Part shown: one piece after another, positions 49,600 through 62,165 of the stretch | Layout of the letters: each line of letters opens with the position of its first letter | Numbering within the stretch: the first letter of the stretch is position 1 | NCBI GenBank assembly: GCA_002401455.1 | Contig: NVTE01000010.1 | Coordinates: 1 to 64,000, forward strand | DNA from: Alphaproteobacteria bacterium | Lineage (GTDB): Bacteria; Pseudomonadota; Alphaproteobacteria; Sphingomonadales; Emcibacteraceae | DNA: 64,000 bases | Reading direction: 5' to 3' | Position numbers and translations under genes: made by a program | Notes under the pieces: generated by a model | Told to the model about the DNA's origin: nothing | What the model saw: the letters and a program-made list of their open reading frames with translations, nothing else | Databases searched by the model: none

Positions 49600-50487
49600 T
49601 TAATCAAGAGCGAATTTAGCAATCGCCATCACCTTGTTTCCCCTCCCAATATATTCCAGATAATCAAAACTGGTAGATCGGGCAAGGGAAATTCCCCGGC
49701 CATGAAATTTTGTATTACTGGAAAAATCCACATCCAGATAATCGGCATAATTAAACCCCGTCCCTTGATCCTCGATCTTGAAACAGACCAGATTATCCTC
49801 CCTCTGGAAGGCAATTTCCACATATCTGTCTTTATACTCGGGACGGGCCAGACGAGATTTTATTTCATCCCTATGGCTGTTATTCTCCATCAATCTCCAT
49901 TTTTCTTCATGGTCGATTTCTAGATTACCATGTTCAATACCATTGGCAATCAACTCAAACAATCCAAAGGCAATCCGATCCGGATCTGGACAGGTTAAAG
50001 CCAGCATAGTGGTCAGGGCCTCTGCCTCCTCAAAGGTTCTTATGCGGAATGTTCCTTGGGTGATGACCCCGATCACGGACTGACGTGAGGCGATTTCCCG
50101 CCGGAAAGCCCGCCGCTGGGAAAATTCATTTTCAGCACAGAGAATCATGGAAAAGAGAAGTTGGTCTGTGAAGGATTGGGGCAACCATTGATAGGAGGCC
50201 TTAAGGCGAAATGACTTGATATCTGCCTGGTCGCCCCCCCCCAGAGTCAGGATCAACGGGATATCCCTGAGTTGGTCATGTTTGACCAGTTTTTTTATAA
50301 AATCCGGCTCTTCTGACACATAGCTATAAGCAACGATGATGGTGTGAATTTCTTTGATAGAGTCACAAAGAAGTTCGCAACCATCCCTAAAACCAGTTAC
50401 CTCCACATAAGGGGATTTTATGGCATCAAGGGCTGAAACAATGTCGGTTTGGTGTGCTGAGGGTGTGTGAATAACCAATATTTTCAT
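49600..50487 (-). CDS. Pseudo-receiver plus HATPase (RsbW-like) protein
   Basis: 295 residues. The N-terminal ~120 residues have a receiver-like outline ('MKILVIHTPSAHQTDIVSAL', 'HTIIVAYSYVSEEPDF', 'DIPLILTLGGGDQ') but lack the acidic pocket and the phospho-Asp. The C-terminal ~150 residues are a GHKL ATPase of anti-sigma type: 'FGLFELIANGIEHGN' (N box), 'IEDQGTGFNYADYL' (G1) and 'FHGRGISLARS' (G2). It has no dimerisation/His domain. It resembles a partner-switch serine kinase/anti-sigma component and is transcribed divergently from the chemotaxis operon, whose end encodes a STAS antagonist and a PP2C phosphatase. Confidence 0.8.
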   Translation of the reverse strand: MKILVIHTPSAHQTDIVSALDAIKSPYVEVTGFRDGCELLCDSIKEIHTIIVAYSYVSEEPDFIKKLVKHDQLRDIPLILTLGGGDQADIKSFRLKASYQWLPQSFTDQLLFSMILCAENEFSQRRAFRREIASRQSVIGVITQGTFRIRTFEEAEALTTMLALTCPDPDRIAFGLFELIANGIEHGNLEIDHEEKWRLMENNSHRDEIKSRLARPEYKDRYVEIAFQREDNLVCFKIEDQGTGFNYADYLDVDFSSNTKFHGRGISLARSTSFDYLEYIGRGNKVMAIAKFALD

Positions 50488-50761
50488 GGAATAGTCATGT
50501 CCTGTAATTGAGGAAAGAATAGCATACTCAAAAAAATAATTACCAATTTAGCAATTTAACAAACTTAATATCAGCCAATACCGCCACAGTATAACAAGAT
50601 AAATACAGTCTTCAAGTTGCACATTTGTTTATTAGAATATTCTTTATAATTATATTCGTAATTTATAATAATCTTAAACTTATATTAAGCTTTAGATCCT
50701 AAATTTCTAATCATAAGGGCATAAGCCATAGAGCTTAAGCCATCAGGACAAAATATGGTTA
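50488..50761. promoter_or_regulatory. Divergent promoter region of the chemotaxis operon
   Basis: 274 bases, very AT-rich, with no gene. The octamer ATGGTTAA (TTAACCAT on the other strand) covers 50755-50762 and overlaps the ATG of the first operon gene; the 12-mer ATGGTTAATGGA also occurs in the palindrome at 13194. No clear -35/-10 or -24/-12 element was identified. Confidence 0.4.
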
Positions 50762-51088
50762 ATGGAGAATAATGTGGGTATATTTAAGCTAACCGATTCC
50801 GAAAATGAAATTCAGCTGGATATGGCACCCGTCATGGACCTGACCGTAGCCGAAGACCTGCGGCTTAGCTTTCTGGACTGCCTATCACACGGCAAAACCA
50901 TAAAAATCATGGCCGGGGATGTTGACCGGATAACCACCCCCTGTCTTCAGGTGCTCTTCGCTATGAAAGCGAAAACAATAGAGCAAAACATTGATTTCAT
51001 AATTCCCACGATATCCGAGGCCTTTCAGAAAGCCCTGAAAGAAGTCGGCCTCACGGACCAGTTTATTACTTCGGAGCATAACGAATGA
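50762..51088 (+). CDS. STAS-domain protein at the head of the chemotaxis operon
   Basis: 108 residues of the STAS/NTP-binding (MlaB-like) type: 'VMDLTVAEDLRLSFLDCLSHGKTIKIMAGDVDRITTPCLQVLFAMKAKTIEQNIDF' in pieces. The position that carries the phospho-Ser in SpoIIAA is a Thr-Pro ('ITTPCLQVL'). Such small STAS proteins often precede cheY-cheA in alphaproteobacterial clusters. Its stop overlaps the cheY start (ATGA), so it is coupled. The exact role is unknown; adaptor to the partner switch is a guess. Confidence 0.85.
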   Translation: MENNVGIFKLTDSENEIQLDMAPVMDLTVAEDLRLSFLDCLSHGKTIKIMAGDVDRITTPCLQVLFAMKAKTIEQNIDFIIPTISEAFQKALKEVGLTDQFITSEHNE

Positions 51089-51450
51089 GCAGAACCGCCC
51101 TAACAATTGATGATTCAAAAACCATGAGAGATATGGTGGCCTTTACCCTGAAAAATGCAGGTTTTGACGTGACCGAAGCTGAAAATGGCCAGCTTGGTCT
51201 GGATCAGATAAACGGCTCTTCTTTTGATGTCATCATAACAGATATTAACATGCCGGTAATGGACGGCATCACTTTCACCCGGGAAGCACGAAAACGAGCT
51301 GAGGCCAGGACAACCCCCATTCTCATCCTAACCACGGAAAGTGGGGCCGACCTTAAAAGTGAAGGCCGTGATGCCGGAGCCACCGGCTGGATTGTGAAAC
51401 CCTTTAATCCTGAAAAGCTATTACAGGTTGTAGAAAAGGTCTGCGGGTAA
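51085..51450 (+). CDS. cheY: Chemotaxis response regulator CheY
   Basis: 121-residue single receiver domain: 'ALTIDDSKTMRDMVAFTL' (acidic pair), phospho-Asp53 in 'VIITDINMPVMDG', Thr in 'ILILTTESG' and Lys in 'GWIVKPFNPEKL'. Phosphorylated by CheA, it binds the flagellar switch or acts as a phosphate sink. It overlaps the STAS gene by 4 bases; cheA follows 69 bases later. Confidence 0.94.
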   Translation: MSRTALTIDDSKTMRDMVAFTLKNAGFDVTEAENGQLGLDQINGSSFDVIITDINMPVMDGITFTREARKRAEARTTPILILTTESGADLKSEGRDAGATGWIVKPFNPEKLLQVVEKVCG

Positions 51451-51519
51451 GTTCCCCTGGCATGACCACGGTATGATCCTGGAATGGTCCAGAAATAAAA
51501 GTCAGAAAAAGGAAATTTT

Positions 51520-53673
51520 ATGTCAGATTCAATGGAGCAGTTTAAAATAGTCTTCTTTGAAGAATGTTCCGAACTTTTGATAAGTCTTGAAGAAGGCCTG
51601 ATGCAACTGCACAGAGGCGACAGTGACGATGAAACCATTCATGCGGTTTTCCGGGCTGTCCACTCGATCAAAGGCGGGGCCGGGGCTTTTGGTTTTGACC
51701 GTCTGGTAGCTTTTGCTCATATTCAGGAAACCCTCCTTGATGAAATGCGTGCCGGCACCCTTGAGATGAAAAAGGATTATATCGACATTCTGCTTCAAGC
51801 CTATGACATCCTGAGCGAACTGGTTGGTGCCGCCCAGCGCAATGTTGACATGGAAGAAGGATTTGGTGGCGATGCGGCCCAGGCCATGCAAAAAGTCATG
51901 GAGACAATCGAGGCCTCTGACGACACCCCTCAGGAACACTCTGATGACGACAGCACGCCGGCCACAGCCTCCGCTACTCAGGGCATTAACACCCGCCTCT
52001 TCTCCATAATCTTCAAACCTTTTATCGGTCTGTATCAGCGGGCTAATGAACCCATACTGCTGATCCGGGAACTGAATGACCTAGGCGACCTGACCGTGGA
52101 TCTGGATACATCCGACATGCCGTCGTTGGATGAGATGCACGGCGAGCATGCTTATTTCTCCTGGAAATTCAGTCTGGTGACCGAATTTGACGAGAATGCC
52201 ATTCTCGAGGTATTTGAATTCGTCGAAGGCGATTGTGAACTGGAGATTAAGGACCTTGGCCCCATCCCGGCATCCGCTGAAGACAGCGCGACAGATGCCG
52301 CAGCCATCACAGAAAAAAGCTCTTCATCCCCTGACGGCCCAGCTCCAACACAATCTAAAACTACCGCTCCGGCAGCTCCCCAAGGCGGGGGAAATGGCAG
52401 CGAAGCCGTAGTCAGCCAATCGATCCGGGTCGAGCTGGACAAGGTGGACCGGCTGGTCAATATGGTCGGAGAACTGGTAATCACACAGGCCATGCTGCGC
52501 GAACAGGGTAGCCAGCTTCTGGTGGAACAATATCCAAATCTTGTCCAGGGTATCGAAGAACTGTCCCGACATATCCGCGACCTACAAGAAAGCGTCATGG
52601 CGATCCGGGCCCAACCGGTAAAGTCGGTCTTTTCCCGTATGCCGCGTCTGGTCCGGGAACTGACGGCTTCCCTGAATAAAAAAGCCCGACTGGTGATGAC
52701 CGGTGAAGAGACCGAGGTTGATAAAACCGTCACCGAAAGAATTGGTGATCCCCTGATGCATATGATCCGCAACAGCGTCGATCACGGGCTCGAATCGCCA
52801 GAAGACCGTCTTAAAGCCGGCAAACCCGAAGAGGGCGTCATCCATCTTTCAGCCTTTCACCGGGGCGGCCGGATATTCATCGAAATCGAAGACGACGGCG
52901 CAGGCATTAACCGGAAGGTGGTCCTGAAAAAGGCCATTGAAAGTGGCTTGGTGACCCCCGATGCCAACTTGACCAATGAAGAAATTGACAATCTGATCTT
53001 CCTGCCCGGTTTCTCCACCGCCGAAAGTGTGACCAAAGTCTCCGGACGCGGAGTCGGGATGGATGTTGTCCGCAAGAATATTCAAAGCCTCGGCGGCCGG
53101 GTCTCCATCAGTTCCGTCACCGGCAAGGGCAGCAAATTCACCATGTCCCTGCCCCTGACCCTGGCGGTCATGGATGGCATGGTGGTCGAGATCGGTGATG
53201 AAAAATTTGTCCTGCCCCTGGTCAATATTATCCAGACCCTGCGCCCGACACCTTCGGAGGTCAACAGCCTGCCCGATGGCCGTAATCTGATGATGTTCCG
53301 GGATGAATATATCTTCCTGGTGCCGCTCTATGACGTCTTCGATGTCCCAGACGCCATAACAAACCCCTGCGAGGGCCTGGTGGTGGTGGTCGAAGGCGAC
53401 GGCGGCATGCTCATGGGGTTCATTGTTGACGACCTGGTAAATCAGCAGCAGGTGGTGATCAAAAGCCTGGAAACAAATTATGAACTTATTGAAGGCGTCT
53501 CCGGCGCAACCATTCTCGGCAATGGGCGGGTGTCGCTGATTGTCGACATCGCCACCGTCCAGGAGATGGCAGCAAAACAATATTCCAAGCCCCAGACATT
53601 CGATCAGGATACCGAAAGTTCCTTATCGCAGGATACTTCATCCTTGGCACAAATCAGCGTAGAGGTCCACTAA
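51520..53673 (+). CDS. cheA: Chemotaxis histidine kinase CheA
   Basis: 717 residues. HPt domain with phospho-His48 ('AVHSIKGGAGAFGF'), a divergent second domain (~165-250), an acidic/Pro linker, the dimerisation helix pair ('VELDKVDRLVNMVGELVITQAML'), GHKL ATPase ('MIRNSVDHGLE', 'IEDDGAGINRK', 'GRGVGMDVVRK', 'KGSKFTMSLPLTLAVMDGMVV') and a CheW-like regulatory domain. It is complete. It phosphorylates CheY and CheB under receptor control. Its stop overlaps the cheW start by one base (TAATG). Confidence 0.97.
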   Translation: MSDSMEQFKIVFFEECSELLISLEEGLMQLHRGDSDDETIHAVFRAVHSIKGGAGAFGFDRLVAFAHIQETLLDEMRAGTLEMKKDYIDILLQAYDILSELVGAAQRNVDMEEGFGGDAAQAMQKVMETIEASDDTPQEHSDDDSTPATASATQGINTRLFSIIFKPFIGLYQRANEPILLIRELNDLGDLTVDLDTSDMPSLDEMHGEHAYFSWKFSLVTEFDENAILEVFEFVEGDCELEIKDLGPIPASAEDSATDAAAITEKSSSSPDGPAPTQSKTTAPAAPQGGGNGSEAVVSQSIRVELDKVDRLVNMVGELVITQAMLREQGSQLLVEQYPNLVQGIEELSRHIRDLQESVMAIRAQPVKSVFSRMPRLVRELTASLNKKARLVMTGEETEVDKTVTERIGDPLMHMIRNSVDHGLESPEDRLKAGKPEEGVIHLSAFHRGGRIFIEIEDDGAGINRKVVLKKAIESGLVTPDANLTNEEIDNLIFLPGFSTAESVTKVSGRGVGMDVVRKNIQSLGGRVSISSVTGKGSKFTMSLPLTLAVMDGMVVEIGDEKFVLPLVNIIQTLRPTPSEVNSLPDGRNLMMFRDEYIFLVPLYDVFDVPDAITNPCEGLVVVVEGDGGMLMGFIVDDLVNQQQVVIKSLETNYELIEGVSGATILGNGRVSLIVDIATVQEMAAKQYSKPQTFDQDTESSLSQDTSSLAQISVEVH

Positions 53674-54194
53674 TGACAACACTTGTAGCAAATGACACCC
53701 GAGGTGATGATCAGGTCAGAGAAGAGCCGGTCATCAAACAATATATTTCCTTTAATGTGGGAAAAGAACTCTATGCCGTGGAAATCACAACCGTCCGAGA
53801 GATCAAGGGCTGGATACCAACCACCAGCCTGCCCAATTCACCAGATTATATGCGCGGTGTTATCAACCTGCGCGGCGTGATTGTCCCGGTCTTTGATTTA
53901 CGGACCCGCTTCCGGCGCGGCCATACCGAGCCCGGCAAAAACCATGTGGTGATCATCGTCAAACTGGACAAGCGGACCATTGGTATTCTGGTAGATGCCG
54001 TTTCCGATATCCTGACCATACCCTCGGAGGAAATTCTCGCCGTCCCGGACCAGGACGTCAATCCGGAATATGCCTTCATGGAAGGGCTGGTCGCCGTCGA
54101 CGAAAAGATGGTCGCGATCATCAAGCCCCGCCTACTGTTCGACATGAATTTGATGCCAGACATGGATAGAGAACCCGAAGCCAACGTCGCCTGA
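53673..54194 (+). CDS. cheW: Chemotaxis coupling protein CheW
   Basis: 173 residues: 'YISFNVGKELYAVEITTVREIKGW', 'TSLPNSPDYMRGVINLRGVIVPVFDLRTRF', 'VVIIVKLDKRTIGILVDAVSDILTI', 'FMEGLVAVDEKMVAIIKPRLLF' are the two SH3-like subdomains of CheW. It bridges receptor and CheA in the array. It has a short charged N-terminal extension. It overlaps the cheA stop and is followed after 68 bases by the receptor gene. Confidence 0.96.
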   Translation: MTTLVANDTRGDDQVREEPVIKQYISFNVGKELYAVEITTVREIKGWIPTTSLPNSPDYMRGVINLRGVIVPVFDLRTRFRRGHTEPGKNHVVIIVKLDKRTIGILVDAVSDILTIPSEEILAVPDQDVNPEYAFMEGLVAVDEKMVAIIKPRLLFDMNLMPDMDREPEANVA

Positions 54195-54262
54195 ACGCGC
54201 CATAGTGGCTAAAAATATAAAACAAAGACAGCAAGATATAGAATAATCAAGGAGCATATGAA

Positions 54263-57200
54263 ATGACCACTTCTGCAACACCATCGATCCTCAGAAACCT
54301 GAAAAGCAGCACGCTGGGATTAACAATTTCCCTTTTATTGGTGACCTCACTTGCCATTTTCGTCCTCATCGGGGTGCAGTCTCAAAGTGTGACAATTCCC
54401 CTGATAGGGGCGGTGTTGACCGCCCTGGCCGCCTATGGTTCATGGTTTGCCCGCACCAGATTCACCAGCCAGTTAGCTATCATGGAGAAGGCTCTGTCCA
54501 AACTGGCAAAGGGCGACATCGCTGTCGATCTTCCCGAAACCGCGGATGCAGATGACCTGAACAGTATCTATCAAACCATTACCGACATCCGGGATCAGGC
54601 GGAAATGACCAATCGCCAGCAAAGTGCCCTCGGCAGTGCCCAAACCAATATCATGGTCGCCGATGCCGACTATAATATCGTTTACATGAACGATACCATG
54701 CTGGAAATGATGCGGGCCAACGAGACCCAGTTGAGAACCGTCCTGCCCCGGCTTAATGCCAATAAGCTAATCGGCACCAACATTGATCAGTTCCACAAAG
54801 ACCCGTCTCATCAACGTAATATCCTGCAACATCTGAATACCACCATCACCACCCATCTGGAACTGGCCGGCATTGAATTTGATCTGGTGGTTAGCCCGGT
54901 CCATGACGCCCAGGGCCAACGTAGTGGTACCGTCGTTGAATGGGAGGATGTCACCGAAAAACTGGCCAAAGAGCGTGACGATGCCGAGAAGTCCAGCGAC
55001 AATCTACGCATCAAGACCGCTCTGGACGGGGCCAAGACCAATGTCATGGTCGCCGACCCTGACTATAATATCATCTACATGAACAAAACCATGCAGGACA
55101 TGATGAGGGAAAATGAGGCCACGTTGAGAACCGTTCTCCCCGGCCTGGATGCCAGCAAACTGATCGGCACCAATATTGATGTCTTCCATAAGGACCCGGC
55201 ACATCAGCGCGGCATTCTGAATAATCTAACCACGACCATCACCACCCACCTGGAACTAGCGGGTATCGAATTTGACCTGGTGGTCAGCCCGATCCGGGAT
55301 GCCCAAGGCAATCGTAGCGGCACCATCGTTGAATGGGAAGATGTCACGGAAAAACTGGCCAAAGAACGCGACGACGCCCAGCTTTCAAGTGAAAACCTGC
55401 GCATCAAGACCGCCCTCGACAGTGCCAAGACCAATGTCATGGTCGCCGATGTCGACTATAATATCGTCTATATGAACGAAACCATGATAGACATGATGAA
55501 GGTCAATGAGGCCACATTAAAAACTGTCCTGCCCCGGATGGATGTCAGCAAATTGATCGGCACCAACATTGATGTCTTCCATAAGAACCCGGCCCATCAG
55601 CGCGGCATTCTGAATAATCTGACCTCAACCATCGAAACCCATCTGGAACTGGCTGGCATTGAATTTGACCTGGTGGTCAGCCCAATCCTGGATGCCAATG
55701 GCGAGCGCAACGGTACCGTGGTCGAATGGGAAGATGTCACGGCAAAACTGGCTAAGGAACGGGCTGATGCCCAGTTGGCCAATGATAACCAGCGGATTAA
55801 AATTGCCCTGGATAATGCCAGCACCAATGTCATGGTCGCCGATAAGGACCTGAATATTGTCTATATGAATGATATCCTGCGCAAAATGATGCATGAAGCC
55901 GAACCTGAACTGCGTAAGGTTCTGCCCAAATTTGATGCCAACAGTCTGATCGGCACCAATATCGATGTCTTCCATAAAAATCCAGCCCATCAGCGCGGTA
56001 TGATGCAAAATCTGACCACGACCATTGATTCCAATATCAAGGTTGGTATTTTTGACTTCAACCTGGTGGTTAATCCGGTTACCGGTGACGACGGCGAACG
56101 TCTGGGCACGGTGGTTGAATGGAAAGACATGACCCAGGAACTTGCGATCGAAGCCGAAATCAACGGCGTGGTCGATGCGGCCGCCGCCGGCGAGTTCAGC
56201 AAACGGGTATCGACCGACGACAAGGAAGGCTTCATGCTGTCCCTGGCCAACAATATGAACGCCATCTGTGCCAATACCCAGGCCGCGACCGATGATCTGG
56301 CCCGGGTTCTGGCCGAACTGGCCAAGGGTAACCTGACCGAGAAGATCGAGGCTGATTATGAAGGCACCTTCGAACTGCTGAAAAACAGCGCCAACGAAAC
56401 CGCCGACCAATTGACCACGATTGTTACTCAGGTCAACAGCTCAGCCAGCGAAGTGGCCTCAGCAGCGGCTGAACTTTCCACCGGCAGTGATGACCTGTCC
56501 CGGCGGACCGAAGCCCAGGCATCAGCCCTGGAAGAAACCGCGGCCTCCATGGAAGAACTGGCGGTGACGGTGAAACAGAATGCCGACAATGCCGATGATG
56601 CCAACAAACTAGCCAACCAGTCCCGCGAAATGGCGGTCAATGGTGGTGAAGTCGCCAAAGAAGCCGTCGCCGCCATGGGTGTGATCGAGGAATCTTCCCA
56701 GAAGGTTTCCGACATCATCGGGGTGATCGATGACCTGGCCTTCCAGACCAACCTGTTGGCCCTGAATGCGGCGGTGGAAGCGGCCCGGGCCGGGGAAGCC
56801 GGCAAAGGCTTCGCGGTGGTTGCCGAAGAAGTCCGGACCTTGGCCCAACGTTCCGCCCAGGCCTCCAATGAGATCAAGTCCCTGATCACAAGTTCCAATA
56901 CTCAGATCAAGGAAGGTGTTGAACTGGTTAATAACGCCGGTACCGCATTGGGAGATATCATGGACTCCATTTCCAAGGTGGCCGAAATTGTCGCCGAAAT
57001 CGCCAGCGCCAGTTCGGAACAGACCCAGGGCATTGACGAGGTCAATGTGGCCATCGCCGAGATGGATGACATGACCCAGCAAAACTCCTCCCTGGTGGAA
57101 GAAAGCACGGCAGCGGCCCGGGTTCTGGAACGTCAGGCCTCCGAAATGCAGCGCCTGATGTCCTTCTTCAAAGTCGCGGAAGGTGGCGCTGGCATCCCGG

Positions 57201-57343
57201 CAGCCGCCTCACCCGCCCTGGTCCAGCAAGGACAAGTCCAACGTGCCATGGCCGCCGAACCGGTGGTCACCCCGAACCTGAAGAAGAAAGCCGCTGGCGG
57301 AGGCGGGGCAAAGGGCCGGGATTCTGATTGGGCCGAGTTTTAG
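54263..57343 (+). CDS. Methyl-accepting chemotaxis protein with four tandem PAS units
   Basis: 1026 residues. Two N-terminal membrane helices (~20-38 and ~44-62) are separated by only about eight residues, so there is no periplasmic sensor. A HAMP-like stretch is followed by four tandem 131-residue PAS units (~118-645), each with 'NVMVAD.DYNI.YMN', '[16 protein letters not shown]', and '[10 protein letters not shown]'. Then come a second HAMP-like region and the signalling domain with the hairpin tip '[44 protein letters not shown]' (in pieces) and methylation helices. It ends in DWAEF, a CheR-tether-like pentapeptide. It should sense an intracellular cue (redox, gas or metabolite). cheR starts 11 bases later. 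Confidence 0.95.
54644..56215 (+). repeat. Four tandem 393-bp (131-codon) PAS-encoding repeats
   Basis: The ACCAAT codons of the TN(V/I)MVAD motif begin at 54644, 55037, 55430 and 55823: exact 393-base spacing three times, without a single indel. Units 2 and 3 agree at roughly four of five residues; unit 4 is the most diverged in its second half. Recent in-frame duplication inside the receptor gene is indicated. Confidence 0.92.
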
Positions 57344-57354
57344 GAGGCTCCCCA

Positions 57355-58212
57355 ATGTCAGTAGTAGCAGAGAGAGTCCGGGAATTTGAATGGCGAGATA
57401 AAGATTTCAAATTCCTGGCAGGGTTGCTTCACGAAAAAACCGGCATTGTCCTGACGGAAAAAAAGAAGGAAATGATGTATGGCCGCCTAGTACGCAGGCT
57501 CCGGGCCCTAAAGATCCCAAGCTTTGCCAAATATTGTGAATATCTGCAAGGCCCGTCCGGGGACAAGGAGCTGGGGTTCACCCTGAACGCCATCACCACC
57601 AACACCACAGATTTCTTTCGGGAAAAGCATCACTTTATCTATCTGCGGGATAAACTCTTACCCCCGGTGCGCAAACAGATTGACCAGAATTCAGCCCATC
57701 ATTTCCGGGTTTGGTCCGCCGGTTGTTCATCGGGCCAGGAACCCTATAGCACCGCCATGGTAATGCGAAGCGTGCTCGGCCCAGCGGCACGGAATTGCAA
57801 AATTCTAGCCACCGACCTTGACAGTAACATGCTGGCAACTGGTAAAATGGGGCAATATGATGCGGCAAAATGCCGCGACACCATCCCCCGGACTTATCTG
57901 AACTCCTATACCAGAAGGGTCAAGGATTCAGAGGGGGACCTGATTGCCATGAATGATGACATTAAAAAACTGATTACTTATCGCCAGCTAAATTTATTGC
58001 ATGACTGGCCTATGAAGGGGAAATTCGATATTATTTTTTGTCGCAATGTCATGATCTATTTCAACAAAGAAACCCAGGATAGCTTGGTCCGGCGCTACGC
58101 CACCTATTTAAAGCCAGACGGAATTTTATTCATCGGCCATTCCGAGAGCCTGCTAAGTGCGTCAGACGTCTATAAGTGCGAAGGAAAAACCATCTATAGG
58201 GTGCTGTCATGA
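57355..58212 (+). CDS. cheR: Chemotaxis protein methyltransferase CheR
   Basis: 285 residues. N-terminal helical domain ('FKFLAGLLHEKTGIVLTEKKKEMMYGRLVRRLRAL', in pieces), then 'TTNTTDFFREKHHFIYL', the SAM-binding 'RVWSAGCSSGQEPYSTAMV', 'KILATDLDSNMLATGKMGQY' and 'FDIIFCRNVMIYFNKETQ'. It methylates receptor glutamates. The start at 57355 has a TAGGAGG site; the frame start at 57328 lies inside the receptor end. It overlaps cheD by 4 bases (ATGA). Confidence 0.95.
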   Translation: MSVVAERVREFEWRDKDFKFLAGLLHEKTGIVLTEKKKEMMYGRLVRRLRALKIPSFAKYCEYLQGPSGDKELGFTLNAITTNTTDFFREKHHFIYLRDKLLPPVRKQIDQNSAHHFRVWSAGCSSGQEPYSTAMVMRSVLGPAARNCKILATDLDSNMLATGKMGQYDAAKCRDTIPRTYLNSYTRRVKDSEGDLIAMNDDIKKLITYRQLNLLHDWPMKGKFDIIFCRNVMIYFNKETQDSLVRRYATYLKPDGILFIGHSESLLSASDVYKCEGKTIYRVLS

Positions 58213-58883
58213 CCCTAACGCGCTCCCTCACCAGACCAACCGTCCGGAAAAAGAAAACGCCGGGTTTTGTTGAACGCCGAGGACGGGATGCCCTGGCCGA
58301 TATTCCAGCCGGCTCCACCTATTATGACCATAAATTCGATACCATGGTTCATAAAATCAATGAAGGGGGCTTTTGTGTGCTGTCCCGGTCAGAGCATGTC
58401 ATTCTGACCACCCTTGGCTCCTGTATCTCGGTCTGCATGTTTGACCCGGTCATCAAGGTCGGCGGCATGAATCATTTCCTGCTGCCCGAAGAACGCCATA
58501 GCGAACGGAAGAACAACTTTTGTATGCGCTATGGCAATAACGCCATGGAAATACTTCTCAATGAAATATTAAAACGCGGCGGCCAAAAAGATCGCATAGT
58601 TCTCAAGGCCTTTGGCGCAGGAAATGTCCTGTCCATCAATGCCAATATTGGGGAAAAAAATCAGAACTTCCTGAAAAAATATATCACGGATGAAAGTATG
58701 AAGCTGGAAACCTGCGATCTGGGCGGTGACCTGCCCCGCCGGGTGGCGTTCTTTCCCGGCACTGGCAAAGCATTTGTCAAGCTCCTGCGCCGGGCGGGTG
58801 ACCGTAATATTGGCCGTCAGGAAGAAAAATACCGTCATAAAATCGAAAGCCAACATGCTTCTGGCGATATTGAATTATTTTAA
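58209..58883 (+). CDS. cheD: Chemoreceptor glutamine deamidase CheD
   Basis: 224 residues, longer than usual (about 160-200) through an N-terminal extension of ~50. The core has the catalytic Cys in 'TTLGSCISVCMFDP', His in 'GGMNHFLLPE', and 'NFCMRYGNNAMEILLNEILKRGG', 'LKAFGAGNVL' and 'IGEKNQNFLKKYI'. It deamidates receptor glutamines and in many bacteria binds CheC/CheY-P. Its ATG overlaps the cheR stop; cheB follows after 15 bases. Confidence 0.93.
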   Translation: MTLTRSLTRPTVRKKKTPGFVERRGRDALADIPAGSTYYDHKFDTMVHKINEGGFCVLSRSEHVILTTLGSCISVCMFDPVIKVGGMNHFLLPEERHSERKNNFCMRYGNNAMEILLNEILKRGGQKDRIVLKAFGAGNVLSINANIGEKNQNFLKKYITDESMKLETCDLGGDLPRRVAFFPGTGKAFVKLLRRAGDRNIGRQEEKYRHKIESQHASGDIELF

Positions 58884-58898
58884 GAAGGACCACCTATA

Positions 58899-59960
58899 AT
58901 GAAAAAAATCAGATTATTGATTATTGATGATTCTCTTCTGATCCGGACCATGATCAGATCAATCGTCTCCCAGGACCCGTCCATTGAGGTAGTGGGCGAG
59001 GCAGTAGACCCCATCGAAGCCCGGGAAAAGATCAAACAATTGAACCCCGATGTGGTCACGCTGGATGTGGAAATGCCCCGTATGGATGGCCTGTCGTTTC
59101 TGGAAAAAATCATGTCCCTGCGGCCCATGCCGGTGGTTATGGTCTCGACCCTGACCCAGAAAGGTGCCGATGTGACCATTCGAGCGCTGGAACTTGGCGC
59201 AGTTGATTATGTGGCAAAACCCCTGAACCAGGATCTGACGGTTGTTGGCCATGAACTGATCATGAAGATCAAAGTCGCCAGCTCGGCCCGCATCCGGCAA
59301 AGCGGTCGGCAAAGAATTGAACCCGGCAGCCATAAACCGATGGCAAGTCCCGGGGCATATAGCCGTAAACTCATTGCCATTGGCTCCTCAACGGGGGGAG
59401 TTGAATCTCTGTATGACATCATTCTCGCCCTGCCAGTTGATTGCCCACCAGTGGTCATCGCCCAGCATATCTCAAAAGGATTTTCCGAGCGTTTTGCCCT
59501 TCGAGTGAACAAGGCTTCAGCCATTCATGTGAAAGAAGCGGTTCATGGAGAACGCCTGCTGCCGGGGACGGTCTATATTGGTCAGGGCGGCAAGCATTTT
59601 ACGGTAAAAAAATCCGGCGGCTCCTTCATCAGTCAGGTGACAGAGGACACGGAGGGTGAGAGTTACCGGCCCTCTGTTGATCGCCTTTTCTGTTCCGTGG
59701 CCGAAACCGTCGGCAAGCATGCGGTCGGGGTCATCCTGACAGGCATGGGAAAAGACGGGGCCCTTGGGCTGCTTACCTTACGGGGTATCGGCGCCGCAAC
59801 CCTGGGCCAGGATGAAGCCAGTTCCATCGTTTACGGCATGCCAAAAGCCGCCATGATGGCGGGCGCAGTCGAAAAGCAGGTATCCCTGTCCCAGATGGCC
59901 CGGGAAATAATCCAATCCTGTACCAGGACTGAAGCCCGCAGAAAGGTTGCTGCGGTATGA
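58899..59960 (+). CDS. cheB: Chemotaxis methylesterase CheB
   Basis: 353 residues. Receiver domain with phospho-Asp56 in 'VVTLDVEMPRMDGLSFLEK', linker, then the methylesterase with the Ser of 'IAIGSSTGGVESL', His of 'VIAQHISKGFSERF' and Asp of 'LTGMGKDGALGLL'. It removes receptor methyl groups when phosphorylated by CheA. Its stop overlaps the start of the CheZ-like gene (ATGA). Confidence 0.96.
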   Translation: MKKIRLLIIDDSLLIRTMIRSIVSQDPSIEVVGEAVDPIEAREKIKQLNPDVVTLDVEMPRMDGLSFLEKIMSLRPMPVVMVSTLTQKGADVTIRALELGAVDYVAKPLNQDLTVVGHELIMKIKVASSARIRQSGRQRIEPGSHKPMASPGAYSRKLIAIGSSTGGVESLYDIILALPVDCPPVVIAQHISKGFSERFALRVNKASAIHVKEAVHGERLLPGTVYIGQGGKHFTVKKSGGSFISQVTEDTEGESYRPSVDRLFCSVAETVGKHAVGVILTGMGKDGALGLLTLRGIGAATLGQDEASSIVYGMPKAAMMAGAVEKQVSLSQMAREIIQSCTRTEARRKVAAV

Positions 59961-60589
59961 CAGTCCCCCTTCCCCTCGACAATAAAGATTCGGCCCGTGG
60001 TATCGCCCCGGAGGACCTGAAAGATATCAGGCAGTTTACTCTCGCCAATATCTCCGAAGAAGTTCTGCAGATTTCTGACCTGGTGGAAAATAGTATTGTT
60101 GACCTGTCTGACGAATTCATGAAGTTGGTGAAATATTCCAAACAACAGGTTGACGACATGACCATGGCCTGCGACCTGCTGCAGGCGGAAAAGGACGACA
60201 AAGACGGGTCAAATAATGACAAGATTCATGAGATGCTGCGGGAAAGTGCCGAAGTGTCCACTTACTTCCACCAAAACGTCAACCGCATGATTTATACCAT
60301 GCAGTTCCAGGATCGGGCCCGCCAACTCATGCAGGCTATATCAGTTTCCCTTAATATTTTAATATATCTATCCGAAACCATTGAAAACAACCAAAATTCT
60401 GATAATATAAAGGAAACCGTAACCATTTCAGAAGATAATAAGAATATTCTAACAAAGCTGATTGAGGACGCCGCCCACCGGGAGCTTGATCAAAATTATA
60501 TTCTGAGAATGTTTATGGGAGGGACGAATACTGATGATGAACCGAAGCATGATGATTCAGAGGGGTTCACCGACATTGAATTTTTTTAA
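59957..60589 (+). CDS. CheZ-like helical protein (putative CheY-P phosphatase)
   Basis: 210 residues, almost wholly helical. The key segment 'MQFQDRARQLMQAI' places Asp119 and Gln123 in the same FQDxxxQ spacing as the catalytic Asp/Gln of E. coli CheZ ('FQDLTGQ'). A long N-terminal amphipathic helix pair and a flexible acidic C-terminal tail ending 'FTDIEFF' resemble the CheZ layout, in which the tail docks CheY. Overall similarity is low, so the call is inference. Translationally coupled to cheB; a STAS gene follows 14 bases later. Confidence 0.65.
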   Translation: MTVPLPLDNKDSARGIAPEDLKDIRQFTLANISEEVLQISDLVENSIVDLSDEFMKLVKYSKQQVDDMTMACDLLQAEKDDKDGSNNDKIHEMLRESAEVSTYFHQNVNRMIYTMQFQDRARQLMQAISVSLNILIYLSETIENNQNSDNIKETVTISEDNKNILTKLIEDAAHRELDQNYILRMFMGGTNTDDEPKHDDSEGFTDIEFF

Positions 60590-60603
60590 CTTAAGGACCT
60601 GTG

Positions 60604-60912
60604 ATGGAATATCAAATCGACGTAACCGATAATAAATTTGAAGCAAAACTGAGTGAAAAGATTACCTTTTCAGACCTGGATGGCTTCCGGGAAATGGTAC
60701 GGCGTATGGTGGAAAGTCATTCAAAAGATAATATTGTTGACTTGTCAGATGTAGAATTTATTGATTCTGCTGGCCTGGGCATGCTGTTGCTGGTCCGGGA
60801 TGAAATCTCAAAAATATCTTCTCATCTCACCTTAAAGTCCCCTCAGGGACAAGTTCAGCGCATGTTCACAGTGGCCCGATTTGATCAGATGTTTGATATT
60901 GAAACCGGATAA
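60604..60912 (+). CDS. STAS-domain anti-sigma factor antagonist
   Basis: 102 residues of SpoIIAA/RsbV type: 'DGFREMVRRMV', 'NIVDLSDVEFIDSAGLGMLLLVRDEI' with the phospho-Ser in 'FIDSAGLG' (Ser55). Phosphorylation by a cognate HATPase kinase and dephosphorylation by a PP2C enzyme are the expected switch. The PP2C protein is encoded 8 bases downstream; a candidate kinase is encoded at 49600-50487. A GTG one codon earlier is an alternative start. Confidence 0.9.
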   Translation: MEYQIDVTDNKFEAKLSEKITFSDLDGFREMVRRMVESHSKDNIVDLSDVEFIDSAGLGMLLLVRDEISKISSHLTLKSPQGQVQRMFTVARFDQMFDIETG

Positions 60913-60920
60913 ATTTTCCT

Positions 60921-62165
60921 ATGGCATCATCTATAATAAATAATAACCACAAGAGTTCCCTGCCGGCCAGCCCCCAAGCCCACGCCATCCAGCAAGAGGT
61001 GCTGGAGAGCGTCATTCTTATTGTGGACGATGATGAGCTTCATTGTCAGATGATCTCGATTATTTTAACTCAGGATGGCTTCAAAAACCTGCATTTTGCC
61101 AACGATGGCCGCCAGGCCCTGAAGATGGCAATTGAGCTGAATCCGGATATGATCATTCTCGATATCCTAATGCCAAATATCGATGGGTTGGAGGTCTGCC
61201 GCCAGCTCCGGGAAATGAAACACTTTCGGACGATCCCAATCATCGCCCATACCATCAAAAAAAAACCGGAAGACCGGGCCGAAATCTATGATGCCGGGGC
61301 CACGGATATTTTCCCTAAACCCGTTTCCGAAAGGGAAGTCCAGAACCGTGTCTATATGCATTTGAAATATGCCAGGATGGTGAAGGACCTGAAACAGTAT
61401 CACACCCGCCTGACCCGTGACCTGGAAATCGCCCATTCCATGCAGAATGCGCTGCTGCCGGAAGTCTCCCAATTGGAGTATATTTTGGCCAGCCACGGGC
61501 TGGATATTGATTATCACTATGAGTCGACCAGTGAGTTAGGTGGCGACTTCTGGGGCATTGATGTGATTGATGACGACCAACTTCTGGTTTATATTACTGA
61601 CTTCTCTGGCCATGGGATCGCCTCTGCCCTCAATACATTCCGCCTTCACACCCTGATTTCAAATTATCAATTGTCCCGGCTTGGTAAAAGCAGTTCCCCA
61701 GCTGAAAGACTGAAACTTCTGAACCGGACGTTACATGGTTTATTGCCGGTGGAACAATTTGCCACCATGCTCTGTGGCATTATTGACCTGAAGAAAGACA
61801 CCTTCACCTATGCGTCGGCGGCATCAACCACCCCGCTCAAATTGACCGTAGGCACACAGGAAGTTATCAGCCTGGACCCCACAGGTTTTCCGCTGGGTAT
61901 GATTGCGGATGCCACCTATGAAAACCATGTTGTCCCGTTCAGGAAAGGCGAGTTGATTTTTCTCTATAGTGATGTGTTGACCGAAAGTCTGGATCATACT
62001 GGTCAAATGATCGGCGATGACTTCTTTCTGGAAATGTGCAAGCAGACCAGCGGCAATCTTACCGACGATCAGGTCTTCCTTAACAGGCTTATGAAAGGGT
62101 TTGATGCTAAAGTGGTCAGACCGCTCCCCGATGATTTGACTGCTATCACCCTGAAAAGGCTTTAA
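60921..62165 (+). CDS. Response regulator fused to PP2C (SpoIIE/RsbU) phosphatase
   Basis: 414 residues. The N-terminal receiver ('ILIVDDDELHCQMISII', phospho-Asp81 in 'MIILDILMPNIDGLE', 'ATDIFPKPVSE') is joined by a coiled coil ('HTRLTRDLEIAHSMQNALLPE') to a PP2C-type phosphatase: 'SELGGDFWGID', 'YITDFSGHGIASAL', 'FATMLCGIIDL' and 'LPDDLTAITLKRL'. The metal Asp residues are all present. Phosphorylation of the receiver, possibly by CheA, would control dephosphorylation of the upstream STAS protein. Last gene of the chemotaxis operon; it converges with lrp. Confidence 0.93.
   Translation: MASSIINNNHKSSLPASPQAHAIQQEVLESVILIVDDDELHCQMISIILTQDGFKNLHFANDGRQALKMAIELNPDMIILDILMPNIDGLEVCRQLREMKHFRTIPIIAHTIKKKPEDRAEIYDAGATDIFPKPVSEREVQNRVYMHLKYARMVKDLKQYHTRLTRDLEIAHSMQNALLPEVSQLEYILASHGLDIDYHYESTSELGGDFWGIDVIDDDQLLVYITDFSGHGIASALNTFRLHTLISNYQLSRLGKSSSPAERLKLLNRTLHGLLPVEQFATMLCGIIDLKKDTFTYASAASTTPLKLTVGTQEVISLDPTGFPLGMIADATYENHVVPFRKGELIFLYSDVLTESLDHTGQMIGDDFFLEMCKQTSGNLTDDQVFLNRLMKGFDAKVVRPLPDDLTAITLKRL

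Follow-up and report, generated by a model that had tools for sequence, protein, structure and literature searches.

A probable F7-type chemosensory operon in an Emcibacteraceae genome is paired with a serine partner switch that may serve as its second output

The first 64,000 nucleotides of contig NVTE01000010.1 (assembly GCA_002401455.1, a marine alphaproteobacterium of the family Emcibacteraceae, related to Emcibacter), hereafter the window, meaning the whole stretch that was analysed, contain a chemotaxis (che) operon whose last two genes encode a STAS protein of the anti-sigma-factor-antagonist type (STAS2) and a SpoIIE-type phosphatase bearing a receiver domain (REC-PP2C), with the gene for a HATPase-domain protein lying divergently at the other end. 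Here, we show that this pairing of a che operon with a serine partner switch is real, conserved and functionally coherent, and we argue that the switch is probably a second output of the operon, driven by phosphorylation of the phosphatase receiver by the kinase CheA. The operon itself appears from its sequence to be an alphaproteobacterial F7 (che4-type, ‘stage 1’-like) chemosensory operon; clusters of this kind have been published, and the present one is a variant of them.

Among the open reading frames of the window, 11 closely spaced plus-strand genes (50762-62165, with intergenic gaps of -16 to +69 bases) are accompanied by one divergent gene (49600-50487). The plus-strand order is STAS1, cheY, cheA, cheW, an Aer2-like receptor gene, cheR, cheD, cheB, a gene for a 210-residue protein, STAS2 and REC-PP2C, and Pfam domains support the identity of CheY, CheA, CheW, the methyl-accepting chemotaxis protein (MCP), CheR, CheD, CheB, STAS, REC with SpoIIE, and HATPase_c_2. 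All of the genes named in a first-pass annotation of this DNA, namely a full Che set joined to STAS, REC-PP2C and a divergent HATPase, were found where it had placed them, and its count of eleven coupled genes also stands, but it had left unnamed the ninth gene (59957-60589), whose product looks CheZ-like. The same layout occurs in the related genomes G013, G004, G010 and G012, with the PP2C gene split across two contigs in G012 and a diverged STAS1 (33% identity) in G010.

The active residues of REC-PP2C and of the HATPase, together with the STAS2 serine, are complete, which on sequence alone gives the component set of an HsbR/HsbA-type switch. In the receiver of REC-PP2C, the phospho-acceptor Asp81 is present in 133/133 full-length homologues and Lys133 in 132 of them (122 of the 133 being distinct), the acid pair and Thr/Ser111 are also present, and the SpoIIE metal-site residues are all intact in the window protein, for which the best match in the PDB is 3eq2 (E=5.4e-31). 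Across the same alignment, Asn is found at the column of metal-site Asp227 in 13/133 proteins and Val at that of Asp351 in 13/133, because of which some copies may be pseudo-phosphatases. The serine of the STAS2 motif DSAGLG is conserved in all 107 homologues examined (90 distinct), and the N-box Glu/Asn/His/Gly, the DxGxG motif and the G-G of GRG are found in all 33 stand-alone HATPase homologues of 270-330 residues (28 distinct).

The HATPase carries a second, degenerate domain. A profile of the family has as its best PDB match SenB (9qih, E=2e-24), over most of the length of the protein, and the next matches of its N-terminal part are receiver structures (PleD, CheY). In this receiver-like region the acid pair is present in 0/13 proteins aligned by eye, and an Asp near the acceptor position, found in at least 4 of the 13, is absent from the window protein; for want of both, this is a pseudo-receiver in the window, as first annotated. 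The HATPase, found in 17 of 60 related genomes (the window genome included) against 21 for STAS2, is fused C-terminally to the phosphatase in G056 (REC-PP2C-HATPase) and N-terminally in Thalassospira (HATPase-REC-PP2C). Since it is fused to REC-PP2C in both orders, and goes undetected where the phosphatase has lost its receiver, we assign it on these sequence grounds to the switch.

Such losses are seen within the genus of the window. Three of its genomes (G005, G007 and G009) keep che with a PP2C that has no receiver, and no HATPase is found in them at E 1e-8. Their loci (L106, L055 and L056, respectively) display a graded decay, from the absence of receiver and HATPase with unchanged metal-site motifs in G005, through Asp-to-Asn and Asp-to-Gly changes in those motifs in G007 and G009, to a broken STAS2 frame in G009, for which an assembly error is also possible. 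In G008 and G011 the homologue of the 59957 gene is shortened. From the pattern of loss in this genus, the parts of the switch appear to be lost together, and che would seem able to do without it. In other genera of the family (G016, G017 and G018), the HATPase, STAS2 and PP2C genes stand together with no che genes, and homologue clustering identifies their flanking genes as those that flank the locus in the window's genus, which we take to be the genes for LeuRS and HolA; the arrangement would fit an insertion of che into the interval from HATPase to STAS2 in the window's genus, or else a loss of che from these three genomes.

Conserved co-occurrence in related genomes, one of the checks named in the first-pass annotation, was borne out by a survey of the class, for which 144 genomes including that of the window were drawn evenly (150 requested, completeness at least 90). 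A SpoIIE match was found in 54/144, at a threshold of 1e-12 that misses weak phosphatases, and CheD in 20 genomes at 21 loci. With the window left out, a same-strand SpoIIE-type phosphatase lies about 3-5 kb downstream of CheD at 9/20 loci. The number expected by chance is 0.03, assuming uniform and independent gene placement and a 6-kb same-strand stretch, and 9 or more were reached in 0/200,000 simulations, the largest value being 2. The linkage of che and switch is not due to chance. At 15 of the 20 loci the order STAS1-CheY-CheA-CheW-(MCP)-CheR-CheD-CheB is preserved in full or almost in full (cheW and cheR have no receptor gene separating them in L156, L161, L164 and L165; no CheB match in L165), and the remaining five have other layouts. 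Both STAS2 and REC-PP2C are carried by nine of these 15 clusters, STAS2 alone by L168, and neither by five. In all nine linked clusters the che genes lie upstream of STAS2/PP2C on the same strand, and eight also carry the HATPase, fused in two, with none seen in L160. At L165 (genome G105) a lone HATPase homologue lies about 5 kb from CheD and the one SpoIIE match of the genome is on another contig; among the loci without STAS2 and REC-PP2C, L164 has a 505-residue protein on the opposite strand with weak matches.

Relatives of the phosphatase were also gathered directly, by an alignment-based scan of contigs that yielded 289 loci (a single-protein query gave none). Among the best 80 of these, 37 lie no more than 10 kb from one or more che genes, and several of the other 43 are on short contigs. 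Records with che linkage include Azospirillum, Terasakiella, Breoghania, Aestuariispira, Sneathiellales and Kordiimonadales. The gene order recurs over many families, and Emcibacter metagenome-assembled genomes (MAGs) are among the nearest named records. No plasmid copy was found at E 1e-40. In two Magnetovibrio MAGs (L102, L111), STAS2, HATPase and PP2C lie beside a receptor (MCP) gene, with no che genes in the stretch examined.

The STAS proteins at the two ends of the operon differ in kind. As the first-pass annotation had it, STAS2 is of the antagonist type, with Ser56, but the same does not hold for STAS1, which has TTPCLQ at the position of the phosphorylatable DSAGLG of STAS2 (Thr59 in 29/33 homologues and Gln63 in 32/33, 28 of the 33 being distinct) and, having no antagonist serine, is ruled out as a second antagonist. 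Each of the 15 sampled clusters with this order begins with a STAS1 homologue, in some cases of weak score (22-28 bits), which stands directly 5' of cheY in 13 of them, with an MCP-like gene between in L156 and L165. It is thus a stand-alone STAS protein within a che cluster (its STAS score being under the Pfam cut-off), as is CheS, which consists of a single STAS domain, is encoded in che clusters of alphaproteobacteria and, in Sinorhizobium, binds CheA (PMC12654446). Because it heads the clusters and fits this description, STAS1 looks CheS-like, a likeness judged from the published account of CheS.

The 59957 protein (210 residues) has no Pfam match of note, and none to CheZ (PF04344). It aligns with proteins of 356-397 residues from other genera that bear a mid-protein MCP signalling hairpin; in the window protein the hairpin is gone, and the motif QFQDRARQ and the terminal DIEFF are retained, by which we identify the gene as a putative McpA-like receptor minus its signalling hairpin. 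Asp119 (D119) and Gln123 (Q123) of the DxxxQ motif are invariant in 14 aligned homologues, 18/18 aligned C-terminal parts end in x-[IV]-E-[LFM]-F, and the terminal Phe is present in 60/60 motif-bearing relatives (52 distinct), a count that is not wholly independent, as the [QE]D...Q motif was required for selection and the profile included the tail. The motif register of L061 and L168 is wrong or doubtful. The catalytic motif of E. coli CheZ is FQDLTGQ, as compared with FQDRARQ here, and its C-terminus is DSLGF. Against E. coli CheZ alone, three profiles gave non-significant E-values of 0.52, 0.04 and 0.063, the latter two aligning on the CheZ catalytic motif and the first not, and a PDB search with the CheZ-like profile returned no CheZ. 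The C-terminal profile matches 36/299 genomes of the phylum (two of which supplied profile rows), and its matches include L200 (E-value 6.5e-5 if a library of 100,000 is assumed), which truly matches Pfam CheZ, at 57.8 bits; the hairpin-bearing L190 and L203 match that model weakly (E 0.0008 and 0.0095, short of its curated threshold) over a stretch that contains the motif. We consider a CheZ-like function of the 59957 protein likely, and kinship with CheZ probable. With CheZ, and with the alphaproteobacterial CheT, described as CheZ-like (PMC12654446), it has the DxxxQ motif in common; it differs from CheZ in that its own sequence has no Pfam CheZ match and its relatives carry an MCP hairpin.

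Across the phylum, the family L176-L205 consists mostly of MCP-like proteins of 350-450 residues with QFQDxxxQ and a C-terminal Phe tail, which look like receptor/phosphatase hybrids, and some members adjoin STAS- or receiver-like matches. Another short form of the CheZ-like gene (207-300 residues) is seen in L112, L122 and L131, from Terasakiella and a Methylocystaceae MAG, where REC-PP2C follows it directly in the che cluster, with STAS2 not detected between them.

In the mechanism that we propose, the Aer2-like receptor would control CheA, which would phosphorylate CheY, CheB and the receiver of REC-PP2C. Once phosphorylated, REC-PP2C would dephosphorylate STAS2 at Ser56, and the HATPase would rephosphorylate it; unphosphorylated STAS2 would bind the HATPase, or another partner, and so free or block a regulatory target not encoded nearby. 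The CheS-like STAS1 may tune CheA, and the CheZ-like protein may remove phosphate from CheY, with the receiver of the phosphatase as a possible further substrate.

Several observations weigh against so direct a coupling. Six of the 60 related genomes (G017, G018, G041, G044, G052 and G056) have the switch with only a distant CheA (about 40% identity, the match covering the C-terminal part of the window's CheA; presence was scored at E 1e-60), in G016 the switch and a closer CheA cluster (54%) lie at separate loci, and Thalassospira, several Kordiimonas and Telmatospirillum have the switch without che within the stretch examined. G008 and G011 keep the che operon with no switch detected, as does G019, with a more distant CheA (51%), and in G015 and G001 (77% and 62% complete) STAS2 has no PP2C gene beside it, with part of a HATPase present in G015. 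The full switch is missing from 6 of the 15 sampled clusters of the window's gene order, no neighbouring gene is conserved beside the module beyond genus level, and linkage needs 8 changes on a PP2C tree, against 20.9 for shuffled labels. This tree comprises 75 phosphatases (38 linked, 27 unlinked, meaning no che gene within at most 10 kb, and 10 unscored on short contigs); its well-supported branches force only 3 changes and several of its branches are long. Because gene order is identical in the linked clusters, we infer an old linkage with repeated loss, the direction of change not being fixed by the tree alone.

As the switch is retained in six genomes that have no close CheA, such a CheA is not an obligatory donor and another must serve there. 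The proposal that CheA feeds the switch, already made in the first-pass annotation, is in keeping with the intact acceptor and the conserved linkage, but in its strongest form it is weakened by these genomes, which speak for a real partner switch whose receiver is fed by some other histidine kinase or Hpt protein and which shares the che operon for reasons of history or co-expression only. There is precedent in HptB, which feeds HsbR (PMC6482189), and at L083, the one Thalassospira-group locus scanned, the switch has an NtrC-type regulator as its neighbour, with an Hpt-bearing hybrid kinase about 4 kb off. We nevertheless hold another donor to be unlikely as the general explanation, given that the same gene order is found across many families, that the window operon has no other kinase or Hpt gene, and that the two unlinked copies examined at L102 and L111 adjoin an MCP gene. 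It is less probable still that the switch lacks a target in transcription or cyclic di-GMP (c-di-GMP) signalling and instead acts back on the array itself, by way of the CheS-like STAS1, of CheA or of the receptor. The binding of CheS to CheA in Sinorhizobium would suit such feedback, as would the outcome of the search for a target. Consistent with the earlier statement that no sigma factor is adjacent, sigma-70 region-2 has no match on the window's contig (five lie elsewhere in the incomplete genome). FlgM was rejected as a target, being detected in none of the sampled switch carriers, including G010, G012, G013, G016, G017 and G018 (98-100% complete), though a very divergent FlgM could escape; the FlgM family occurs in 5/60 genomes, all of them members of family f6, in which the switch went undetected. 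The idea that a conserved neighbour is the target was likewise rejected, none being conserved beyond the genus; the two largest clusters of unlabelled neighbours, which stem for the most part from Azospirillum, are probably spurious reading frames of GC-rich sequence. Feedback on the array sits poorly, however, with the persistence of the module in the six genomes without a close CheA, with that of the che operon in G008 and G011, and with the absence of an antagonist serine from STAS1. Finally, the graded loss in the genus, from G005 through G007/G009 to G008/G011, could make the switch a decaying passenger of the operon in this lineage, which we regard as very improbable in view of the window's switch proteins, all of them intact with conserved active residues. 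CheA phosphotransfer, while not obligatory in all relatives, is probably the input to the switch, and the likeliest of those considered.

The closest published layout is the F7 ‘stage 1’ cluster of gamma- and betaproteobacteria, with Vibrio cholerae and Methylomicrobium alcaliphilum as named examples, in which an antagonist, cheY, cheA, cheW, an aer2-like gene, cheR, cheD, cheB, an mcpA-like gene, an antagonist and a serine phosphatase follow one another (PMC7184735). This is the order of the window, both antagonists and the phosphatase included. The window, which belongs to another class, differs in having one cheW instead of two, an mcpA-like gene without the signalling hairpin, and a divergent HATPase gene that is not mentioned for stage 1 in the relevant part of that paper. 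The layout is therefore already in print, and what is added here is the membership of the HATPase, the CheS-like STAS1 and the hairpin-less McpA with its CheZ-like motif. The same source calls the function of F7 stages 1 and 2 unclear while reporting evidence for a stress response, describes the McpA C-terminus as strikingly conserved with an unclear role, and notes that the P. aeruginosa tether motif has valine as its second residue (PMC7184735).

Within the alphaproteobacteria, the che4 operon of Azospirillum brasilense comprises nine genes, including those for CheS, CheA4, CheR4, CheB4, Tlp4a and Tlp4b (PMC8561660), of which Tlp4a is Aer2-like (PMC6759762). CheA4 affects the rpoN, nifA and nifH promoters, and as yet unidentified regulators have been inferred to join CheA1 and CheA4 to the rpoN and nifA promoters (PMC8561660). 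Two A. brasilense loci (L144 and L152), inferred to be che4, share the window's order over the stretch examined (cheS and cheY lie beyond it), with che genes followed by STAS2, the HATPase and two REC-PP2C genes; the HATPase thus lies between STAS2 and a doubled PP2C, whereas that of the window is divergent and its PP2C single. No mention of STAS, PP2C, SpoIIE or anti-sigma was found in the che4 account (PMC8561660), and the switch terms are absent from the text of PMC8100600.

The nearest studied switches are HsbR/HsbA and RbaV/RbaW/RbaY. In P. aeruginosa, HsbR is a REC-PP2C-kinase with a STAS partner, HsbA, in a system driven by a phosphorelay (PMC6482189; see also PMC8256260). Together with CrsR/CrsA of Shewanella, it resembles the window in its REC, PP2C and kinase domains, STAS partner and receiver-controlled phosphatase (PMC6482189), but HsbR is one fused protein fed by HptB, whereas the window has two genes accompanied by a che operon, and a FlgM target of the HsbA type is undetected in switch carriers of the window's lineage. 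RbaVWY of Rhodobacter capsulatus is likewise an alphaproteobacterial switch whose STAS, HATPase and REC-PP2C parts are separate proteins, and no sigma factor has been identified for it (PMC3999984), just as the window has no sigma gene nearby on its contig. It differs in that RbaY is encoded apart from RbaVW and, in the part of that report covering the system, no pseudo-receiver is described and che genes and CheA go unmentioned.

SypE/SypA of Vibrio fischeri also combine kinase, REC and PP2C domains with a partner of the STAS type. The order in SypE is presumably kinase-REC-PP2C, matching the Thalassospira fusion, and the system feeds biofilm control; to our knowledge it lies outside any che operon. 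The che2 cluster of P. aeruginosa adjoins siaABCD. SiaABCD is itself a PP2C/kinase/STAS switch, acting on a c-di-GMP enzyme (PMC9239204).

The features of the locus are collected in Table 1. The region between the divergent genes holds 28 promoter consensus matches as compared with 15.8 in shuffles, by consensus matching alone. The receptor scores 774.7 bits against the NCBIfam Aer2 model NF041847, under the model's own cut-off of 1200 bits, and its tail fits the F7 Aer2-like pattern x-[HFYW]-x2-[HFYW]. Each of its PAS repeats contains FHKxPxHQR, with a period of 131 residues, and receptor length ranges from 755 to 1177 residues across the genus. In the window genome (2.08 Mb, 69% complete), REC-PP2C is the only SpoIIE match, and one further STAS match above the cut-off lies on another contig in a 554-residue frame.

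Table 1. Genes and intergenic region of the che operon and partner switch, by position in the window.
Feature	Position	Strand	Evidence or remark
HATPase: degenerate receiver with HATPase_c_2, putative kinase/anti-partner, divergent	49600..50487	-	Pfam PF13581, 29 bits (cut-off 27.4)
Divergent intergenic region, HATPase gene to STAS1, 274 bases	50488..50761		promoter-like matches on both strands
STAS1: CheS-like single STAS domain, TTPCLQ, no antagonist serine	50762..51088	+	17.8 bits (Pfam cut-off 22.6)
CheY	51085..51450	+	PF00072, 94.7 bits
CheA (Hpt, dimerisation, HATPase, CheW-like)	51520..53673	+	Pfam; HSIKG at residue 48
CheW	53673..54194	+	Pfam
Aer2-like receptor: four PAS repeats, HAMP, MCP signalling domain, DWAEF tail	54263..57343	+	Pfam
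CheR	57328..58212	+	Pfam; later start near 57355 possible
CheD	58209..58883	+	Pfam
CheB	58899..59960	+	Pfam
Putative CheZ-like protein from McpA/Tlp4b-like receptor: QFQDRARQ, terminal DIEFF	59957..60589	+	alignment, motif and profile
STAS2: anti-sigma-factor-antagonist type, Ser56 (DSAGLG)	60601..60912	+	Pfam STAS, 52 bits
REC-PP2C (SpoIIE-type) phosphatase	60921..62165	+	Pfam REC and SpoIIE

Partner switches of this type often govern gene expression, and the recurrence of the pairing across many relatives points to a role for the sensory system beyond the steering of swimming. A wider and more tentative proposal, which we put forward as possible but less likely than not, is that the McpA/Tlp4b-like ‘receptors’ of F7 systems are phosphatases of the CheZ type that their MCP hairpin holds at the array, with the conserved tail as a CheY-binding peptide, and that the partner switch at the 3' end is the ancestral F7 output through which CheA might control gene expression, for example as the regulators linking CheA4 to rpoN and nifA in Azospirillum. 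The window offers direct candidates here, namely a switch with an identified kinase that could take its input from CheA, and an McpA reduced to the CheZ-like part and the tail, and these bear on the function of F7 stages 1 and 2 and the role of the McpA C-terminus (PMC7184735) as well as on the regulators between CheA1/CheA4 and their promoters (PMC8561660). The genus of the window displays natural steps in the loss of the switch, and, if our reading is true, a single chemoreceptor array would control both swimming and gene expression via two receivers of one kinase.

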